From contig CAITEO010000087.1 in the NCBI GenBank assembly GCA_903891505.1, positions 1 to 33,457 of the forward strand: DNA of 33,457 bases, given 5' to 3'. Position numbers and translations under genes: made by a program. This DNA is from an uncultured Candidatus Woesearchaeota archaeon. Its GTDB lineage: Archaea > Nanobdellota > Nanobdellia > Woesearchaeales > 21-14-0-10-32-9. The notes under the pieces are model-generated. The model saw nothing but the letters and a program-made list of their open reading frames with translations. It had not been told where the DNA came from and did not search any database. Positions 3,011 to 21,173 of the stretch are shown one piece after another (position 1 is the first letter of the stretch; every line of letters starts with the position of its first letter).

Positions 3011-3844
3011 ATGATTTCTGCAGAAGAATACAAAACAAAATATGAAGAAAAAGAAAATAGAATAAATGCATTTAATGAATTTTGTAAGTTGAAGAATGAA
3101 GGTGCGACAAAAAGAAAACTGGTGCTAAATATAAATAGAAAGTATTGTATAAACGCAGGAACTATTTACTCATGGACTTATAGAAATAATTCTCCCTACA
3201 TAGTCAGAGTAAAAGTTTGTCCTGAATTATTTTATGTTATAGGTGCTATTCTTGGAGATGGATGCATCTATCAATGGAGACACATTTATAGAATAAACTT
3301 GGTTGGAGATGAAGCGTTTACGCGTAAATATGCAAATAAACTATCTGTGTGCCTAAACCGACCAGTTAAGAATTATTTCAAAAGAAACAGAAATTATTGG
3401 TTCGTTAATAGAACAAACGTAGAACTTTTCTTTATGATTAAAACAATTAGAACAAATCTAGACAGTTTATTAGAGCTGTTCAAACAGGGCAACACTAAAG
3501 AAAATTGTTTACAATTCTTAGAGGGATTCTTTGATGCTGAAGGTTGTGTAAAAATAATCAAAGAGCCAACTATTAGAAAAACACCAAAAGTTTGCCTAGA
3601 TATATACAACACTAATTACGCATTCCTTGAATTGTGCAGAAATATACTTTCTGAATATCTCAATATAACTACTAGGTACTCTGTTCAAAACCCGTCAGAC
3701 AAAGACGAATATGAAAGGAAAGTAGCCTATCATTTGAGAATATACAAAAAAGAATATGTGAAAATTTTCCTTGAGAACATCGACACAACAAAGCTAAAAA
3801 AAGAAAAAATAAACTATGTTAAAACATGGCTCGAATTAAAGTGA
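3011..3844 (+). CDS. Free-standing LAGLIDADG homing endonuclease-like protein
   Basis: Two LAGLIDADG-type motifs: FYVIGAILGDGCIY and FLEGFFDAEGCVKI. Start taken at MISAEEY (3011) because of the TATA spacing; the supplied ORF starts at 2945. Confidence 0.85.
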   Translation: MISAEEYKTKYEEKENRINAFNEFCKLKNEGATKRKLVLNINRKYCINAGTIYSWTYRNNSPYIVRVKVCPELFYVIGAILGDGCIYQWRHIYRINLVGDEAFTRKYANKLSVCLNRPVKNYFKRNRNYWFVNRTNVELFFMIKTIRTNLDSLLELFKQGNTKENCLQFLEGFFDAEGCVKIIKEPTIRKTPKVCLDIYNTNYAFLELCRNILSEYLNITTRYSVQNPSDKDEYERKVAYHLRIYKKEYVKIFLENIDTTKLKKEKINYVKTWLELK

Positions 3845-4681
3845 ACCTTTTAGCGCCTTCTCGTAATTCTTCTCAACAACATCCCAATTTATGATGTTGA
3901 AGAAATTATTTATGTACTCAATCTTTCTGTTGTTATATAGGATATAAAAACTATGCTCCCATAAATCCAATGTCAATATAGGAATCTTTCCAACACTTAG
4001 TGAATTATCTTGATTTGGAAGGTTTATTATTTCTAGTTTTCCTTTGTTTAGAACAAGCCAAGTCCATCCAGAGCCAAATAAGCCTTTAGCGCTGTTCGTG
4101 AATGCTTCCTTGAATTTTTCATAGCCCCCAAACTCTTTATTTATAGCATCCAGCAATTTGCCTGATGGTTTAGTATCTTTTTTTAGTATTGTCCAAAAGA
4201 AGTTATGATTCAAAACTCCTCCTCCGTGGTTCTTAACTTGGAGCCTTATGTCTTCAGGAACTACATTCAGGTTTGCGAGGAGCGCGCCTAGTTCTAATTT
4301 GTATAACTCTGGATGCTTATCAAGCGCCAAGTTCAGATTATCGACGTAAGTTTGATGATGTTTGTCATGGTGCAATCTAACTGTTGCTTCGTCCATGTAT
4401 GGCTCGAGTGCGTTGTATGCATATGGCAATGCAGGTAGCACGTGTTTCTTAGTACTTGTTGCAACAACCGCAGGTACACTCGCTTGCCCTTTTGTTGTTG
4501 TACTTGTTTGCTTTGCAGGAGCAACCACTTTCGTTGGCACTGCTTTTGCTGGTGCCACTTTAACTGGTGTTGCTTTAACTGGTGTTGTTTTAACTGGTGT
4601 TGTTTTAACTGGTGTTGCTTTGACTATTTTTGTCTCTTTTTTCATTGGTTTCATCTGTTTCGTTTCTTTTTTCATTTTCAT
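3836..4681 (-). CDS. sodA: Fe/Mn superoxide dismutase with N-terminal Lys/Pro/Thr/Ala repeat extension
   Basis: LPALPYAYNALEPYMDEATVRLHHDKHHQTYVDNLN ... NHNFFWTIL ... GSGWTWLV ... LTLDLWEHSFYI; about 80 aa TPVK-rich N-terminus. Confidence 0.93.
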   Translation of the reverse strand: MKMKKETKQMKPMKKETKIVKATPVKTTPVKTTPVKATPVKVAPAKAVPTKVVAPAKQTSTTTKGQASVPAVVATSTKKHVLPALPYAYNALEPYMDEATVRLHHDKHHQTYVDNLNLALDKHPELYKLELGALLANLNVVPEDIRLQVKNHGGGVLNHNFFWTILKKDTKPSGKLLDAINKEFGGYEKFKEAFTNSAKGLFGSGWTWLVLNKGKLEIINLPNQDNSLSVGKIPILTLDLWEHSFYILYNNRKIEYINNFFNIINWDVVEKNYEKALKGSL

Positions 4682-7659: not shown

Positions 7660-7740
7660 CAAAATCTCCTTCCTGACACCCCGTAGGGGGCGACCCCCGT
7701 CAGGGCGCGCAAAAGATGTTTGCTGCGCACGGAGATTTTG
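7660..7740. repeat. Multi-hairpin intergenic element 1
   Basis: Outer stem caaaatctcc (7660-7669) / ggagattttg (7731-7740); hairpin cctgac...gtcagg (7672-7704) with core accccgtagggggcgaccccc; hairpin gcgcgcaaaagatgtttgctgcgc (7705-7728). Confidence 0.85.
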
Positions 7741-8349: not shown

Positions 8350-8432
8350 CTAAAATCACCTATGCTCCACCCCGCAGGGGCCATCCCCCGGAGCATCGCG
8401 TCACTTTTCGTCGACGGCGACGGTGATTTTAG
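8350..8432. repeat. Multi-hairpin intergenic element 2
   Basis: Outer stem ctaaaatcacc (8350-8360) / ggtgattttag (8422-8432); hairpin tgctcc...ggagca (8363-8395); bulged hairpin tcgcgtcacttttcgtcgacggcga (8396-8420). Confidence 0.85.
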
Positions 8433-8445
8433 TACTTCCTTCACT

Positions 8446-9291
8446 TCACATTCCCTCATAGCCTTTTGTTTCGATTTCTTTTATTATTTCTGCGCCGCCG
8501 CTCTTGACTATTTTTCCTTCTTTCATAACGCAGATTCTATCAGGAACAATATAATCTAGCATTCTTTGATAGTGTGTAATTATGACAACGGTCAAATCTT
8601 TCCTCTCTTTCTTCAAAGTGTTTATCGCGTCGCATACTTGTTTTAACGCGTCAACATCAAGCCCTGAATCTGTTTCATCAAGTATCGCAAGTTTTGGTTC
8701 AAGCATTGCCATCTGGAGTATCTCTATTTTTTTCTTCTCGCCGCCAGATAGTCCTTCGTGAATGCTTCTCGACATCATTTCACGTGGAATCTTAAGCAGC
8801 TCTAGATTCTTATTCAAAAGAACTACGTATTCTGATATTCGTATCTGTTTGTTTTTTGGTCGCCGAGAATTCATCGCTGTTCTTATGAAATTAGAGATTG
8901 TTATACCTGGTATCTCAACTGGTTGCTGGAACGAGAGAAATATACCTGCACGTGCTCTATCTTCTACTTTCATCTTCATCACATCTTCTCCTTCGAAGAT
9001 TATTTTTCCAGAAACATTAATTAATGGATAACCTGTTATTGCTTTTGCAAGTGTGCTCTTCCCAGAGCCATTAGGCCCCATTATTACAAGCACTTCTCCT
9101 CGCATTACATCAAGGCTAAGCGAATTCAGTATTTTCTTTCCATCAACAGACGCATTTAATCCTTTTATCTCTAGTAAATTTGGTTTATTTTCTGCTCCTT
9201 TTGTGATGATTGTAGTTTTTGCAGTATTCATGGTTTTATTGTTCCCTTTATTTTCTTTTGTGCTCTCTTTTGTTATGATTCCTTTTGCCAT
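8446..9291 (-). CDS. sufC: Fe-S cluster assembly ATPase SufC
   Basis: MGPNGSGKSTLAKAITGYP ... FLSFQQPVEIPGITISNF ... GLSGGEKKKIEILQMAMLEPKLAILDETDSGLDVDAL. Confidence 0.95.
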   Translation of the reverse strand: MAKGIITKESTKENKGNNKTMNTAKTTIITKGAENKPNLLEIKGLNASVDGKKILNSLSLDVMRGEVLVIMGPNGSGKSTLAKAITGYPLINVSGKIIFEGEDVMKMKVEDRARAGIFLSFQQPVEIPGITISNFIRTAMNSRRPKNKQIRISEYVVLLNKNLELLKIPREMMSRSIHEGLSGGEKKKIEILQMAMLEPKLAILDETDSGLDVDALKQVCDAINTLKKERKDLTVVIITHYQRMLDYIVPDRICVMKEGKIVKSGGAEIIKEIETKGYEGM

Positions 9292-9295
9292 GAAT

Positions 9296-9862
9296 TCACT
9301 TCTTCAATGCTTTTTCGATTGGTTTGCTAATTATGTTTGTATTCGCTGTCTTTGATTTTCCAGTTTTACCTGCTTCATACTCAACTATTCCTTTCTTGAC
9401 TGTTGAGAGTGGGAGCATCGCGCATTTGACTCTTGTCGGTGTGAGACTTAGTCCAATCATGTCGAGTAAATCTTCTCTTGTTATGGCTGCGACTTCTGCA
9501 AGCGTTTTTCCTTTTATTCTATCTAGGAGCAAGGATGTTGATGCCATGCTTATTACGCAGCCTTTGCCATCGAAAAGCGCATCAGTTACTCGTCCAGACT
9601 TATCAAGACGTAAACTTATTTCTACTTGATCTCCGCACAAAGGATTGTGTTCCTCCGTTTTTATATCTGGCTTTAACATTAATCCTTTATTGGTTGGATT
9701 TCTGTAAAGTTCTAGCAACTCTTGTCTATACAAATCATCTGCAACCTTATCAACAGCACCATTAGCAACCTTACTCGCAACTTTATCAACGAGAGCATCT
9801 GCTGATTTGTCTGTCAGTTTTGAATTTTGTTTTTTGTCGTTGCCAGCCAATTTAGTCACCAC
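9296..9862 (-). CDS. sufU: SufU/IscU-like Fe-S scaffold protein with N-terminal extension
   Basis: LYRNPTNKG ... HNPLCGDQVEISL ... FDGKGCVISMASTSLL ... TRVKCAMLPLSTVKKGI. Confidence 0.9.
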   Translation of the reverse strand: MVTKLAGNDKKQNSKLTDKSADALVDKVASKVANGAVDKVADDLYRQELLELYRNPTNKGLMLKPDIKTEEHNPLCGDQVEISLRLDKSGRVTDALFDGKGCVISMASTSLLLDRIKGKTLAEVAAITREDLLDMIGLSLTPTRVKCAMLPLSTVKKGIVEYEAGKTGKSKTANTNIISKPIEKALKK

Positions 9863-11060
9863 TCAGTATTTTTTTTGCAACGTTAAGTGAGTCTATTAGT
9901 TTGTCTACATCTTTCCTGTCGTTGTAGAACGATAAACTAATTCGAAGTGTTGCTGGAATTCCAAGTCTTTGATGAAATGGATGTGCGCAATGTGATCCAG
10001 CACGGATGCACACATTGCTTCTCGCACATATTGTAGCCACATCATGCGGATGCACATCATCGATAAGGAATGCAATGACTGGTCCATGTTTCTGTTTTTT
10101 GTGCCCGATTATTTTAAGGCCGTTAATTTCTCTGAGTTTTTCGAGTGCATAATCCCTTAATTCATTCTCAGATGCAAATAGCTCTGAATAGTTATTATCT
10201 TTAAGATATTTTATCGCAACGCCAGTGCCAATTATTCCTTCGGCGTTTACTGTTCCAGGTTCAAGTCTATCAGGAAGATCAGCCCAGCTACTCTCACTAT
10301 TTGTTACTTTTCGTATCATTCCGCCGCCGAATCTTGTAGGTTCTAGTTGCTCAAGTAATTCTTGTTTTCCATATAATATTCCAACTCCTCCCGGACCATA
10401 TAATTTATGCGCTGAAAAACATGCAAAATCACAATCTAGTTTTTTCACGTCTATTTTTTCATGCGCAACAAGTTGAGTTATATCAAGAACTATTATTGCT
10501 GCTTTGTTCTTCTGCCTTATCACTTTTATAATTTTTTCAACATCAGGCACAATCCCAGTTACATTTGACATTCCAGTAAGTGCAACTATTTTTGTTCTTG
10601 CATCGACGTATTTTTCGGGGTTAATAGTTTCATTTGTTTCGTTGTATTTCGCGACACGAAATTCTGCGCCTAATTCCGTAGCAATTTGCTGCCAAGGAAC
10701 AAAGTTGCTGTGATGCTCAAGTTCGGTTGTCACTATGTTGTTTCCAGGTCCTGTGAATTTCTTAAGGGAATCTGCGAGCATATTGAATGAATCTGTTGCA
10801 TTTCTAGTAAAAATTATCTCTTCGCTTCGAGCGTTGATGAATGCAGCAACATCTGCTCTTGCCTGATCGACAAGTTTTGCAGTGTTCTCAGACGCCACAT
10901 ATATTCCGCTGTGTGCGTTAGAGTTGTCTGTTTCGTAATAATAACTAATCGCATCAATTACTTGTTTCGGCTTTTGTGTTGTAGCTGCGTTGTCTATGTA
11001 CACTTTTCCCGCGAGTGCAGGAAAATCTTTCTTCAATTTTGCACCTGTTTTAATCAACAT
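9852..11060 (-). CDS. sufS: Cysteine desulfurase SufS
   Basis: DFPALAGKVYIDNAATTQKPKQVIDA ... ELEHHSNFVPW ... CFSAHKLYGPGGVGILYG ... CIRAGSHCAHPFHQRLG. Confidence 0.96.
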   Translation of the reverse strand: MLIKTGAKLKKDFPALAGKVYIDNAATTQKPKQVIDAISYYYETDNSNAHSGIYVASENTAKLVDQARADVAAFINARSEEIIFTRNATDSFNMLADSLKKFTGPGNNIVTTELEHHSNFVPWQQIATELGAEFRVAKYNETNETINPEKYVDARTKIVALTGMSNVTGIVPDVEKIIKVIRQKNKAAIIVLDITQLVAHEKIDVKKLDCDFACFSAHKLYGPGGVGILYGKQELLEQLEPTRFGGGMIRKVTNSESSWADLPDRLEPGTVNAEGIIGTGVAIKYLKDNNYSELFASENELRDYALEKLREINGLKIIGHKKQKHGPVIAFLIDDVHPHDVATICARSNVCIRAGSHCAHPFHQRLGIPATLRISLSFYNDRKDVDKLIDSLNVAKKILSGD

Positions 11061-11111: not shown

Positions 11112-11305
11112 GTAAGTTTGCTGTACGCGAGAAAACACCACTGTGTTTCCTGCGCCCAGAAAATCAATAAAGATTTTCTTGGCGCCGCTGTCTTTGACAG
11201 CGTGTCTCGACGGGGGTTGCCCCCTTCGGGGTGCACAAAAAATCCACTGGCTTTTTTGGCACAGGAAACGCTTAACGTTTCCTTGTGGCGAGAAAGCAAA
11301 CTTAC
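11112..11305. repeat. Multi-hairpin intergenic element 3 (large)
   Basis: Outer stem gtaagtttgct (11112-11122) / agcaaacttac (11295-11305). Inside: AAACAC/GTGTTT; GCGCCcAGAAAATC...GATTTTCTtGGCGC (11152-11185); CGCTGTCtttGACAGCG (11186-11202); GC-rich core (11203-11236); AAAAAAtCCactGGcTTTTTT (11237-11257); CACAGGAAACG...CGTTTCCtTGTG (11260-11287). Confidence 0.85.
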
Positions 11306-11331: not shown

Positions 11332-12168
11332 CTATTCCTCCATCATCTTGCTAACTTTCTGTGATAGCATCGGCAAGAGCATCTCGAGTTTATCAACACT
11401 TAGCGTTTCAAGCGATTTATGAATAAACGCATTTATCATCATCTCTTTCGCGTCAATCTCGCTTATTCCTCTTGATTGCAAGTAAAATAATTTTTCATCA
11501 GCTATCTGCGTTATTGACGAGCTATGATTGCATTTTACGTTGTTATTTAGTATCTCGAGATTTGGAAGCGAAATCGCTTTCGAATCTTTCAATATTAACA
11601 TATCAGATTTCTGCATTCCTTCTGCGTTCTCTGCAAATCGCTCGATTCTCACAAGTCCTGTTAACATCATGTCTGCACTCGAGAGCAAGCCTCTATTGTG
11701 AAGCTCTGATTTTGAATTTTTTCCCTTGTGGATTATTGACACTTTGTGCTCCTGCTTTTGTCCGTTAGCGAGGAACAAATTCATGACTTTAATCGTGCTA
11801 TTCTCCCCAATTTCTATCGTTGTGTTTGTTGATTTGTTTTTTGACCCAACAACTATTTTATGAATTACGACTTCCGCATTCTTTTTTATTATAATTCTTT
11901 TAACAACATTCATCTCATTGTTTGAATCCATTATTTCTAAATAGTTTAGTTTTGAGTTATCATCACATATTATGTCAAGTTCTTTTAGTTTATCGTTCGT
12001 ATTTACAACCGATCTTGTCATTCCTTTCTCGACGTTGATTGTAAGCAATTCTGGTTGCCCTATATTCACATTAAATTTATTTATATCAAATTTATTCTTC
12101 GCCACGCTTTCATTTCTTTCTGAATCTTTTTCGCTGATTTTCTCACGTGGCATCTTCTTGCTCTTCAT
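11332..12168 (-). CDS. sufD: Fe-S cluster assembly protein SufD
   Basis: Follows sufB; SufBD-like C-terminus NNVKCNHSSSITQIADEKLFYLQSRGISEIDAKEMMINAFI. Confidence 0.9.
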   Translation of the reverse strand: MKSKKMPREKISEKDSERNESVAKNKFDINKFNVNIGQPELLTINVEKGMTRSVVNTNDKLKELDIICDDNSKLNYLEIMDSNNEMNVVKRIIIKKNAEVVIHKIVVGSKNKSTNTTIEIGENSTIKVMNLFLANGQKQEHKVSIIHKGKNSKSELHNRGLLSSADMMLTGLVRIERFAENAEGMQKSDMLILKDSKAISLPNLEILNNNVKCNHSSSITQIADEKLFYLQSRGISEIDAKEMMINAFIHKSLETLSVDKLEMLLPMLSQKVSKMMEE

Positions 12169-14678
12169 CCAAGTCCACCTTCAATTTCAAGTTCGATTAA
12201 TTTGTTCATCTCGACAGCGTATTCGAGTGGAAGTTCTTTTATGATTGGTTCTATGAATCCAGATACAATAAGTTGCACTGCTTGCTCTTTGCTAAGTCCA
12301 CGTGTTTGTAAGTAGAATATTTGTTCTTCGCTTATCTTTCCTACTTTTGCTTCGTGCACGAGATTTGAGTCTTTTTCATCTGACACTATGACTGGATATG
12401 CATTGCTCTGACTTATGTTATCAAACATTAGAGAGTCGCAATTAACTGCACAATTTACTCCGAGCGCGCCTTTTTTTACAATTACAAGTCCTCGGTACGC
12501 AACGATTCCACCATCTTTACTTAGACTCTTTGAGGTTACTGTGCTCGATGTGTTCGATGCTAAATGGTAAACTTTCGCGCCAATGTCTTGATTTTGACCC
12601 TGGCCTGCGTATGCTATTGATAGATGAGTTGCCCTAGCGCCTTTGCCTGCAAGAACTGATGCAGGGTAGAGCATTGTAACTCCCGAGCCTAAATTTCCAG
12701 AAACCCATTCCATGATCGCATTTTCTTCGACAACTGCTCGCTTCGTGTTCAAATTGTATGTATTTTTAGACCAATTCTCGACGCTACTATATCTCATGCG
12801 AGCGTTTTTCATGACAAATATTTCAACGCAGCCCGCATGAAGTGAACTGCTGTTGTAAATTGGCGCCGAGCAATTATGGACGGCGACTCCTGAAACAGTG
12901 TATGTGTGATAAGACTCGACTCCAAAATTATACACTTTCGTATTGTAAACATTTCTTTTAGATATTTTTTTTATAGGTACATATGCAAATTTTTTATCCA
13001 CATAAAACATAGCTGCCCTTTTTTTGTTGTTCATCTTCTCCTGAACTTTAATATCAACTATCTTTCCAAATTGTATCATATGCTCCCCAGTAATTCCGAG
13101 TGTGTACATGTCCTGTCTGTTTTCGAGTATCCTTATTCTTTTGTTTATGAAAGCAAATATGCCAAGTCTTAGCAAGATATCTCTTCCTTGCCTGGTAAGT
13201 TTTTCTGATGTTGTGTTTATTCTGAATGATTCTTTAAATCCTGATTTGTGCGCCCTGCAATAATAGTTGCCGTCTCCTCTAAACCAACCTTTTATTATTT
13301 CTAACTGATTTTCATGAGATTCATACATCATCCATGGAAGAACTTGTTTTCTGTTGTTCTTATCTCCAAATTGCTTGAAAAGTCTGGCTAAATCAACAGA
13401 GCACACAACAACAGAGGTTCCATTATTTTTTTTGTGCACCATTTCAAGGATTTTTTTGACATCAAACACGCGTTTAAGGCATAGTTTGACATCCTCAATG
13501 TATTCTTTTTCTTTTGAATTGAATGAAAAATTCAAATAAGAATTAGAACTAACGCTGCCTTCTGCTAAATAATATCCTACTAATCTAAAGAACTCTGGAA
13601 CCAATTCTACATTTATTTTTTTTGTATAACTTTTCCCGCTCGATGTTTTTCTTTCAATTTCGAAAATATGATTTGTATTTTTCTTCACAGTATTGTTTAT
13701 GGGCAGAACTAAATAATCTCCTTTTTTGAAATATACTGGTGCATTCCATCTAGGATTAAATGTTTTATTTCGCTCGTTCTTCCATTTCCTATCAACGTAT
13801 AGAAATGGATGCTCAGGTGTTGAACTTATTGTTTGGGTTGAATCTCCATAGAATTCTATGTCATAAATCTCTCCAGTATATTCGTAGAATTGCAAATCTT
13901 TAGATCCCATAAACTCACCTTCAGATGTGAGTATCTTTTCACCTGATTGTATCTCCTCTATTTTTTTATAGTCAGTATTTGTAGTCACAAGATTTCCTGC
14001 GGTAAAGCACCCTTCGATGTAGTGGCACTCTGCTCCTTCGTCGATTATTATGAGTGTGTGTTCGAATTGCCCCATTCCTTCTGTATTCATCCTAAAGTAT
14101 GCTTGCAAAGGCATCGATACTTTGACTCCTTTAGGGACGTAGATGAATGTTCCACCAGACCATACTGCGCCATGCAATGCTGAGAACTTGTGAAGCGCCG
14201 GTGCAACTCCTGTTGTCATGAAATACTTCTTGACAAGATCAGGATATTTTTTGACTGCAACATCCATATCTTCAAAGATGACTCCTTTTTTTTGCAAATC
14301 TTCTTTTAGATTGTGATAAATTATCTGACTATCATACTGCGCGCCAACGCCAGCGAGTGCTCGTCGTTCAGCTTCTGGAATTCCGAGTTTTTCGAATGTT
14401 TGTTTTATGTTCTCAGGTACTTGCTCCCAAGTGTTCGCATTCGGTTTCGCGTCAGGCACAGAAAAGTAATGTATCTTGCTCAAATCAAGCTTTGATATAT
14501 CAGGCCCCCATGATGGATTTTTCTTATCTAGAAATATTCTGAATGCTGCAAGTCTTTTATCAAGCATCCATTTAGGTTCACGCTTGTACTCCGATATTTT
14601 ACGTACAGTTTCAACGTCGAGTCCTACGTCTGCTTCGAACTTGTTTTTTACATCGTCCGCAACGTTTAAGTCTTTCAT
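12165..14678 (-). CDS. sufB: Fe-S cluster assembly protein SufB, interrupted by an intein
   Basis: Exteins: VPKGVKVSMPLQAYFRMNTEGMGQFEHTLIIIDEGAECHYIEG / CSAPIYNSSSLHAGCVEIFVM ... LQTRGLSKEQAVQLIVSGFIEPI. Confidence 0.96.
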   Translation of the reverse strand: MKDLNVADDVKNKFEADVGLDVETVRKISEYKREPKWMLDKRLAAFRIFLDKKNPSWGPDISKLDLSKIHYFSVPDAKPNANTWEQVPENIKQTFEKLGIPEAERRALAGVGAQYDSQIIYHNLKEDLQKKGVIFEDMDVAVKKYPDLVKKYFMTTGVAPALHKFSALHGAVWSGGTFIYVPKGVKVSMPLQAYFRMNTEGMGQFEHTLIIIDEGAECHYIEGCFTAGNLVTTNTDYKKIEEIQSGEKILTSEGEFMGSKDLQFYEYTGEIYDIEFYGDSTQTISSTPEHPFLYVDRKWKNERNKTFNPRWNAPVYFKKGDYLVLPINNTVKKNTNHIFEIERKTSSGKSYTKKINVELVPEFFRLVGYYLAEGSVSSNSYLNFSFNSKEKEYIEDVKLCLKRVFDVKKILEMVHKKNNGTSVVVCSVDLARLFKQFGDKNNRKQVLPWMMYESHENQLEIIKGWFRGDGNYYCRAHKSGFKESFRINTTSEKLTRQGRDILLRLGIFAFINKRIRILENRQDMYTLGITGEHMIQFGKIVDIKVQEKMNNKKRAAMFYVDKKFAYVPIKKISKRNVYNTKVYNFGVESYHTYTVSGVAVHNCSAPIYNSSSLHAGCVEIFVMKNARMRYSSVENWSKNTYNLNTKRAVVEENAIMEWVSGNLGSGVTMLYPASVLAGKGARATHLSIAYAGQGQNQDIGAKVYHLASNTSSTVTSKSLSKDGGIVAYRGLVIVKKGALGVNCAVNCDSLMFDNISQSNAYPVIVSDEKDSNLVHEAKVGKISEEQIFYLQTRGLSKEQAVQLIVSGFIEPIIKELPLEYAVEMNKLIELEIEGGLG
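12873..14009 (-). mobile_element. Intein (379 aa) with LAGLIDADG homing endonuclease domain inside SufB
   Basis: Starts at C224 (CFTAGNLVTT), ends VHN followed by C+1 (CSAPIY); block B STPEHPF; LAGLIDADG-like FRLVGYYLAEGSV and IIKGWFRGDGNY; C-terminal VESYHTYTVSGVAVHN. Confidence 0.96.
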
Positions 14679-14698: not shown

Positions 14699-14837
14699 CA
14701 AATTTACCGTACGCCGCCGTCAGTTTAAGGCGCGTCTCGACAGGGGTTGGTCCCCTAGGGATGCACAAGAAAATACTGCGTATTTTCTTGGCACACGAAA
14801 CGTTTAAGCGTTTCCTTGTGTCGAGAAGGTAAATTTG
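14699..14837. repeat. Multi-hairpin intergenic element 4 (nested)
   Basis: Outer stem caaatttacc (14699-14708) / ggtaaatttg (14828-14837); bulged hairpin acgccgccgtcagtttaaggcgcgt (14711-14735); inner stem TCTCGACA (14735-14742) / TGTCGAGA (14819-14826); hairpin CAAGAAAATACtgcGTATTTTCTTG (14766-14790); hairpin GAAACG...CGTTTC (14797-14814). Confidence 0.85.
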
Positions 14838-17620: not shown

Positions 17621-17645
17621 TTTTTTATCCTCCTATTATTCTCTT

Positions 17646-17799
17646 ACTCGTATTTTTGTGGCCGCGAGCTATCGAGCTAAACACGCATTAACAAATACGA
17701 GTCTAGCCCAAGAAAATCTGTGAGGATTTTCTGGACACAGAAAACGTGAAACGCTTTCTTGTGTTTTGTTGACTGCATTATTCATTTGCTCGCTGGGCT
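17646..17799. repeat. Multi-hairpin intergenic element 8 (composite)
   Basis: IR ACTCGTATTT (17646-17655) / AAATACGAGT (17693-17702); AGCCCA (17705-17710) / TGGGCT (17794-17799) enclosing AGAAAATC...GATTTTCT and ACACAgaaa...tttcTTGTGT hairpins similar to elements 3 and 4. Confidence 0.65.
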
Positions 17800-17816
17800 T
17801 CAAAAAAATACTTCGT

Positions 17817-21089: not shown

Positions 21090-21173
21090 GTTGAGTTGCC
21101 TATGCTCCACCCCGGAGGGGGCGACCCCTGGAGCAACGCGTCGCTATAATACGACGGCGTACGGCAACTCAAC
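21090..21173. repeat. Multi-hairpin intergenic element 5
   Basis: Outer stem gttgagttgcc (21090-21100) / ggcaactcaac (21163-21173); hairpin tgctcc...ggagca with core accccggagggggcgacccct; bulged hairpin acgcgtcgctataatacgacggcgt. Confidence 0.87.

Follow-up and report, generated by a model that had tools for sequence, protein, structure and literature searches.

A hairpin-rich spacer in a woesearchaeal suf gene run is one copy of a dispersed, probably mobile family of structured repeats

The window (i.e., the whole 33,457-nucleotide stretch that was analysed) carries a run of suf genes on its minus strand, comprising a SufB with an intein bearing LAGLIDADG homing endonuclease domains (12165–14678; Pfam matches), a SufBD-core protein (11332–12168), a SufS-like aminotransferase (9852–11060), SufU/NifU_N (9296–9862) and an ABC ATPase in the SufC position (8446–9291). 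Between the SufBD-core and SufS genes lies a structured element read on the plus strand (11112–11305; hereafter E3), which splits the gene run as the first-pass annotation had described. Comparison of this spacer in related genomes, proposed in the same annotation, revealed that sufD and sufS overlap or lie only a few nucleotides apart in seven relatives of the same family (G001, G002, G005, G006, G007, G008 and G010). Since the two genes abut in all seven, the spacer and E3 were gained in the focal lineage; the empty site is not alignable base by base, because these relatives are distant (SufS ca. 50% identical).

E3 is enclosed by a perfect 11-bp outer stem (arm A, or P1; 11/11 paired, with 172 nt between the arms), in which the 5′ arm GTAAGTTTGCT (11112–11122) is the perfect complement of the 3′ arm AGCAAACTTAC (11295–11305); the sequence of this stem is unlike that of other copies of the element, with the pairing kept. 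Six hairpins had been annotated inside the stem, and all of them were found in that order (11133–11148, 11152–11185, 11186–11202, the core at 11211–11233, 11236–11258 and 11260–11287). Missing from that list was an inner stem, TCTCG (11205–11209) with CGAGA (11289–11293), which forms arm B (P2) and closes the core together with the two hairpins to its right. Arm C is the hairpin CGCTGTC-ttt-GACAGCG (11186–11202), corresponding to GCCGCCA..TGGCGC or CGCCGTC..GACGACG arms elsewhere, and the conserved core CGGGGGTTGCCCCCTTCGGGGTG (11211–11233) matches the covariance model R1 introduced below with 34.5 bits (E 9.5e-9). Upon RNA folding, the 241-nt region around E3 reached –94.7 kcal/mol on the plus strand, versus –59.5 ± 4.7 kcal/mol for dinucleotide shuffles (z –7.45), and –96.3 kcal/mol on the minus strand (z –7.84), with none of 200 shuffles being as stable.

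Searching with the full E3 sequence yielded 15 matches in its own genome (E3 included), mostly partial, and the core motif CACCCCGNAGGGGNCNANCCC with up to two mismatches occurred 16 times in this 1.03-Mb genome, compared with zero occurrences of a reversed control. Three further copies of the core element are situated on the minus strand of the window, at 7668–7706 (arm B and core; outer stem CAAAATCTCC/GGAGATTTTG; R1 57 bits, E 4.9e-16), 8359–8397 (53.4 bits; outer stem CTAAAATCACC/GGTGATTTTAG) and 21099–21137 (45.7 bits; outer stem GTTGAGTTGCC/GGCAACTCAAC), and a degenerate copy whose arm B encloses a hairpin pair spans 14712–14836 on the same strand. Across all GTDB r220 species genomes, the exact core pattern was present in 68 stretches, 67 of which belong to DPANN archaea, mostly Woesearchaeota (the genomes being labelled Woesearchaeota, Nanoarchaeota/Nanoarchaeia, Pacearchaeota, DPANN or plain "archaeon"). 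The one exact match elsewhere, in a Chloroflexi MAG contig (L082:4795–4817), may be a chance palindrome, contamination or transfer.

R1, a covariance model of the core arm with 39 positions, matched 93 of the 292 genomes of the order Woesearchaeales in a patchy pattern, often with 10 to at least 22 copies per matching genome and with at least 20 in several of them. None of the ten remaining genomes in the focal family contained an R1 copy, no exact core was present in IMG/VR, and the plasmid collection gave no match. The family to which E3 belongs is thus multi-copy, patchily distributed and lineage-restricted. Rfam 15 returned nothing relevant, either for the window at gathering threshold or for 13 loci at E 5, and no description of the core family or of woesearchaeal repeats was found in the papers searched; the family, found in neither source, appears to be previously unnamed.

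Well-preserved copies fold as a three-way junction of arm A, arm B (which bears the core) and arm C. Among 46 copies of genus g40, 456 of the 460 outer-stem cells were paired (shuffled mean 393, maximum 408), and the changes in this stem amounted to 63 double, 4 one-sided and 4 unpaired ones. Likewise, arm B displayed 117 double-change cells, versus 36 ± 5 after shuffling and at most 23 after sliding. Copies therefore keep the three-way junction by paired changes while their sequences diverge. With strand C defined as the complement of CACCCCG (for E3 the plus strand of the window, antisense to suf), the mismatches of arm B on this strand included tandem G·A/A·G in 24–28 of 91 copies and never tandem U·C, with G·U outnumbering A·C. 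These noncanonical pairs, the tandem G·A in particular, point to strand C as the one that is folded. Wobble was scarce in the outer stem (4 G–U and 2 A–C), which gives no indication that the molecule that folds is RNA. Over automatically picked helices, G–U stood to A–C at 35 to 33, a ratio that was uninformative, unlike the count anchored on arm B.

In 47 of 48 copies, the C-run of the core forms all four pairs with the 3′ G-run, three of these copies carrying a compensated C–G to G–C change, whereas uncompensated changes disrupt the energetically favoured GGGGG/CCCCC hairpin in 25 of the 48. For E3 itself, this mildly favours a predicted pairing of the C-run at 11220–11224 with the 3′ G-run at 11228–11231 over the GGGGG/CCCCC hairpin, the support being modest because variation is low. 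Two other features of the core were considered and rejected. A conserved U-N-C-G tetraloop seemed strong at first, but the scan pattern accounted for part of it and genus g40 does not retain it, and an intramolecular G·G–C triplex was suggested by three copies in which G8 had changed to T along with C17–G27 to G17–C27, probably in one event.

The core family exists in two circularly permuted topologies. Variant 1 (the own genome, G046 and G114) is joined to the flanking genome through arm A, with arm C closed as a hairpin, whereas variant 2 (G013, G158, G196, G247 and many GTDB loci) is joined through arm C, its arm A being the closed hairpin, capped by a 3–4-nt loop. Strand C of a variant 1 copy (L008) thus reads CC-GCTC-GCCGCCA-loop-TGGCGC-arm B-TAGG-flank, and that of a variant 2 copy (L043) reads flank-TGGCGC-arm B-AGG-hairpin-CC-GTCT-GCCGCCA-flank, i.e., the same junction words in rotated order. 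By automatic calling, and with G056 left out, genomes in which the topology was callable carried essentially one variant each, suggesting that the permutation switch is old or rare.

The first-pass annotation had further suggested a chain of successive hairpin insertions, and comparison of copies bears this out. Core elements in the same genome occur without extra hairpins (e.g., L005, L008 and L012), with a hairpin pair solely after arm C (L002, L004 and L013) or with one solely inside arm B (L003 and L006), while E3 has extra hairpins at both places, one set separating the core from the 3′ strand of arm B and the other, on the opposite side, separating arm C from the outer stem. On the former side, the hairpins CAAAAAATCCACTGGCTTTTTTG (11236–11258), whose place matches that of the pairs in L003 and L006, and CACAGGAAACG-cttaa-CGTTTCCTTGTG (11260–11287) have pushed the 3′ strand of arm B away. 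On the latter side, the hairpins at 11133–11185 belong to a second family, with the pattern CAAGAAAAYC-n-GRTTTTCTGG followed by AGAAAAYG-n-CRTTTTCTT. Its first hairpin (11152–11185, with one bulged A, reading CCAAGAAAATC..GATTTTCTGG on the minus strand) is one of 24 exact copies in the genome, where the reversed control pattern gave none, and AAACAC-cact-GTGTTT (11133–11148) is its inverted partner. E3 is hence a composite: bulged hairpin pairs of a second family have inserted into it at two positions, both of which also bear such pairs in other copies.

A few further genomes of the order carry this second module in large numbers; the first hairpin of the module was absent from the ten relatives in the focal family. 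Besides lying in intergenic DNA, the module is translated in one and the same frame (SRKSxDFLDAE..) within four unrelated proteins of the own genome, i.e., transaldolase (L240:909–1868), ribosomal protein eL32 (L241:1071–1739), class II RNR (L253:2–1564, minus strand) and tRNA-intron endonuclease (L259:1287–2090); solved transaldolases in the PDB lack this stretch. Several other repeats were encountered alongside. A multi-hairpin spacer at 17621–17816 of the window consists of second-module hairpins with their own enclosing stem and without the GC core. Longer nested-hairpin arrays at L007 and L039 (contigs C86 and C44 of the own genome), with CAATTAAG/CTTAATTTG closing stems and AATAATTC hairpins and likewise without the core, constitute a third repeat type that has the second module in common. 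Different large structured repeats at L269–L288, in other Woesearchaeales genomes (G190, G109, G207 and G043), share a CAAGAAAA/TTTTCTGG hairpin pair, and tandem 15-nt repeats with a unit close to CTTTAACTGGTGTTG are located at 4528–4632 of the window, within an ORF (3836–4681).

Few sites of the core family were shared between the two congeners compared. When 20 loci of G046 were set against 40 of G114 (both genus g40), flanks were common to only about 3 of the 20. One site held in common lies upstream of dnaK, where G046 and G114 both carry the element and G236, G191, G150 and G208 have none. At this site the outer stem is identical between the two species, while arm B (TTCGAC/GTCGAA vs. CGAGCC/GGCGAG) and arm C (GCAACC/GGTTGC vs. 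TCAGCC/GGCTGA) differ and are paired in both. The core family is turning over, with its pairing constrained. Copies showed no bias in orientation relative to genes (23 sense, 27 antisense, 21 divergent and 9 convergent), the ends of 46 copies revealed no target duplication, direct repeats or preferred target, and no gene was found to recur beside core-family copies. Mean identity between copies was 0.54 within genomes vs. 0.45 between genomes, as expected of amplification from a founder.

Taken together, E3 is best explained as an inserted copy of a dispersed, non-autonomous and probably mobile structured repeat of Woesearchaeota, a reading to which we assign a probability of roughly 70%. A search for a mobiliser rejected IS200-type Y1 transposases, reverse transcriptases and TnpB, the families of which do not track the copies: none of the three is present in G046 and G013, which have at least 22 copies each, and Y1_Tnp is absent from the high-copy genomes G013, G043, G046 and G056. 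The own genome does carry two near-identical IS200-type Y1 transposase genes (on contigs C31 and C91 of G000; L265 and L264), one of them cut by a contig end, and neither locus is flanked by core or second-module hairpins.

As to how such a repeat might move, strand C (the plus strand of the window for E3) may be recognised in its folded form, as ssDNA or RNA, by a trans-acting enzyme, and a circular or fold-back intermediate may be opened at an arm tip, that of arm A or that of arm C depending on the lineage, giving rise to the two permutations. Opening at an arm tip would also explain why outer stems are arbitrary yet perfect and why target duplication is missing. That the family represents a new class of archaeal mobile element, i.e., a circular or fold-back single strand with a three-way junction that inserts by opening one arm tip, nevertheless seems unlikely at present; given that no genome clearly mixes the permutations, the opening of a circle at one or the other arm may date far back, or the idea may be wrong. 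If such a class did exist, it would be marked by circularly permuted copies, arbitrary perfectly paired ends, no target duplication and other hairpin repeats inserting in turn.

Other explanations were also weighed. The family could be a dispersed structured RNA or a self-cleaving ribozyme, permuted like the hammerhead or twister types and acting when strand C is transcribed. In favour of this speak a three-way junction whose core is conserved and whose paired arms vary, the existence of two permutations, and tandem G·A plus a U-N-C-G-like loop on one strand of many copies. We nonetheless consider this improbable, since Rfam holds no match, the outer stem has few G–U pairs, the loop owes part of its regularity to the search pattern and is not retained in genus g40, and orientation to genes is not conserved. 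Slightly less probable still is that the perfect arms arise without selection or mobility, as replication corrects quasi-palindromes by template switching. Such correction would copy one arm onto the other and thereby produce the observed preponderance of double over one-sided changes (63 vs. 4), and the hairpins are indeed nested. However, the unpaired runs of the core stay conserved between families of the order, movement or repeated gain is required to account for the patchy distribution and the sites not shared, and the two strands of arm A lie 90–170 nt apart. Template-switch copying between arms, rather than selection, could still partly account for the excess of double changes in copies of the family.

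Least probable of all is a cis-acting role for E3 as attenuator, insulator or mRNA-processing element that would set sufBD versus sufSUC expression, insulation or attenuation of the two suf halves being a possibility that the first-pass annotation had raised: E3 does lie inside a co-directional gene run, both of its strands fold strongly and the genes that it parts abut in relatives, but its family is found in any gene context and either orientation, the strand that is probably folded is antisense to suf, the core holds nothing suf-specific, and where a suf attenuator or riboswitch should keep its position and orientation upstream of sufS, seven relatives have no sufD–sufS spacer and the family has no orientation bias. 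E3 is one copy of a dispersed family and probably not a suf-operon-specific switch; any effect on suf expression would be incidental, and the family as such does not imply suf regulation.

Small DPANN genomes are usually called streamlined. About one-third of the sampled genomes of one archaeal order nevertheless carry this structured repeat family, the number reaching 20 copies or more in some genomes of ca. 1 Mb, and annotators should not take such hairpin spacers for operon-specific switches. The two permutations and the nested insertions moreover provide a concrete handle on how folded repeats may spread without an obvious transposase.

By analogy, the core family may work like REP/BIME, ERIC/BOX or Rickettsia palindromic element (RPE) repeats, although neither the transposase of REPs nor the target duplication of MITEs was found. 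Similar to REP/BIME sequences and REPINs, the core family and E3 consist of short imperfect hairpins scattered between genes as inverted pairs, present in many copies and both orientations and with compensated changes; many-copy, mostly intergenic palindromic hairpins are indeed seen for both the core (16 copies) and the second module (24 copies). The closest match to REP/BIME is the second module of E3, with its bulged hairpin pairs in opposite orientation, while the core family differs by its three-way junction, conserved GC core, own outer stem and two permutations. REPs are tagged by a GTAG or CGTC tetranucleotide at one end (PMC3733652). In many permuted core-family copies, TAGG and CCGTC flank arm A, varying between copies and not located at the element end, and no linked REP-associated Y1 transposase was found. 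Neither DPANN nor Woesearchaeota is mentioned in a survey of bacterial and archaeal REPs from 2025 (PMC12306157).

With ERIC, BOX and other prokaryotic MITEs, the core family shares a non-coding, modular and intergenic nature, occurrence in either orientation and inverted-repeat ends, the outer stem of 10–16 bp in most variant 1 copies serving as terminal inverted repeat. It differs in that the ends of 46 copies revealed no target-site duplication, the terminal repeats vary by copy, and no recurrent neighbouring gene or parent insertion sequence sharing these repeats was identified. Integron attC sites work as one folded strand, their structure being conserved more than their sequence. The core family resembles them in its probably folded single strand and in keeping structure over sequence, but occurs as single dispersed copies instead of cassette arrays, and its conserved part is the inner core instead of the outer boxes. 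Finally, the second module alone behaves like RPEs, which insert into unrelated proteins always in the same frame (as summarised in PMC10969869). Differing from RPEs in its archaeal host, its sequence and its nesting inside another repeat, the in-frame module in four unrelated proteins extends the RPE phenomenon to archaea.
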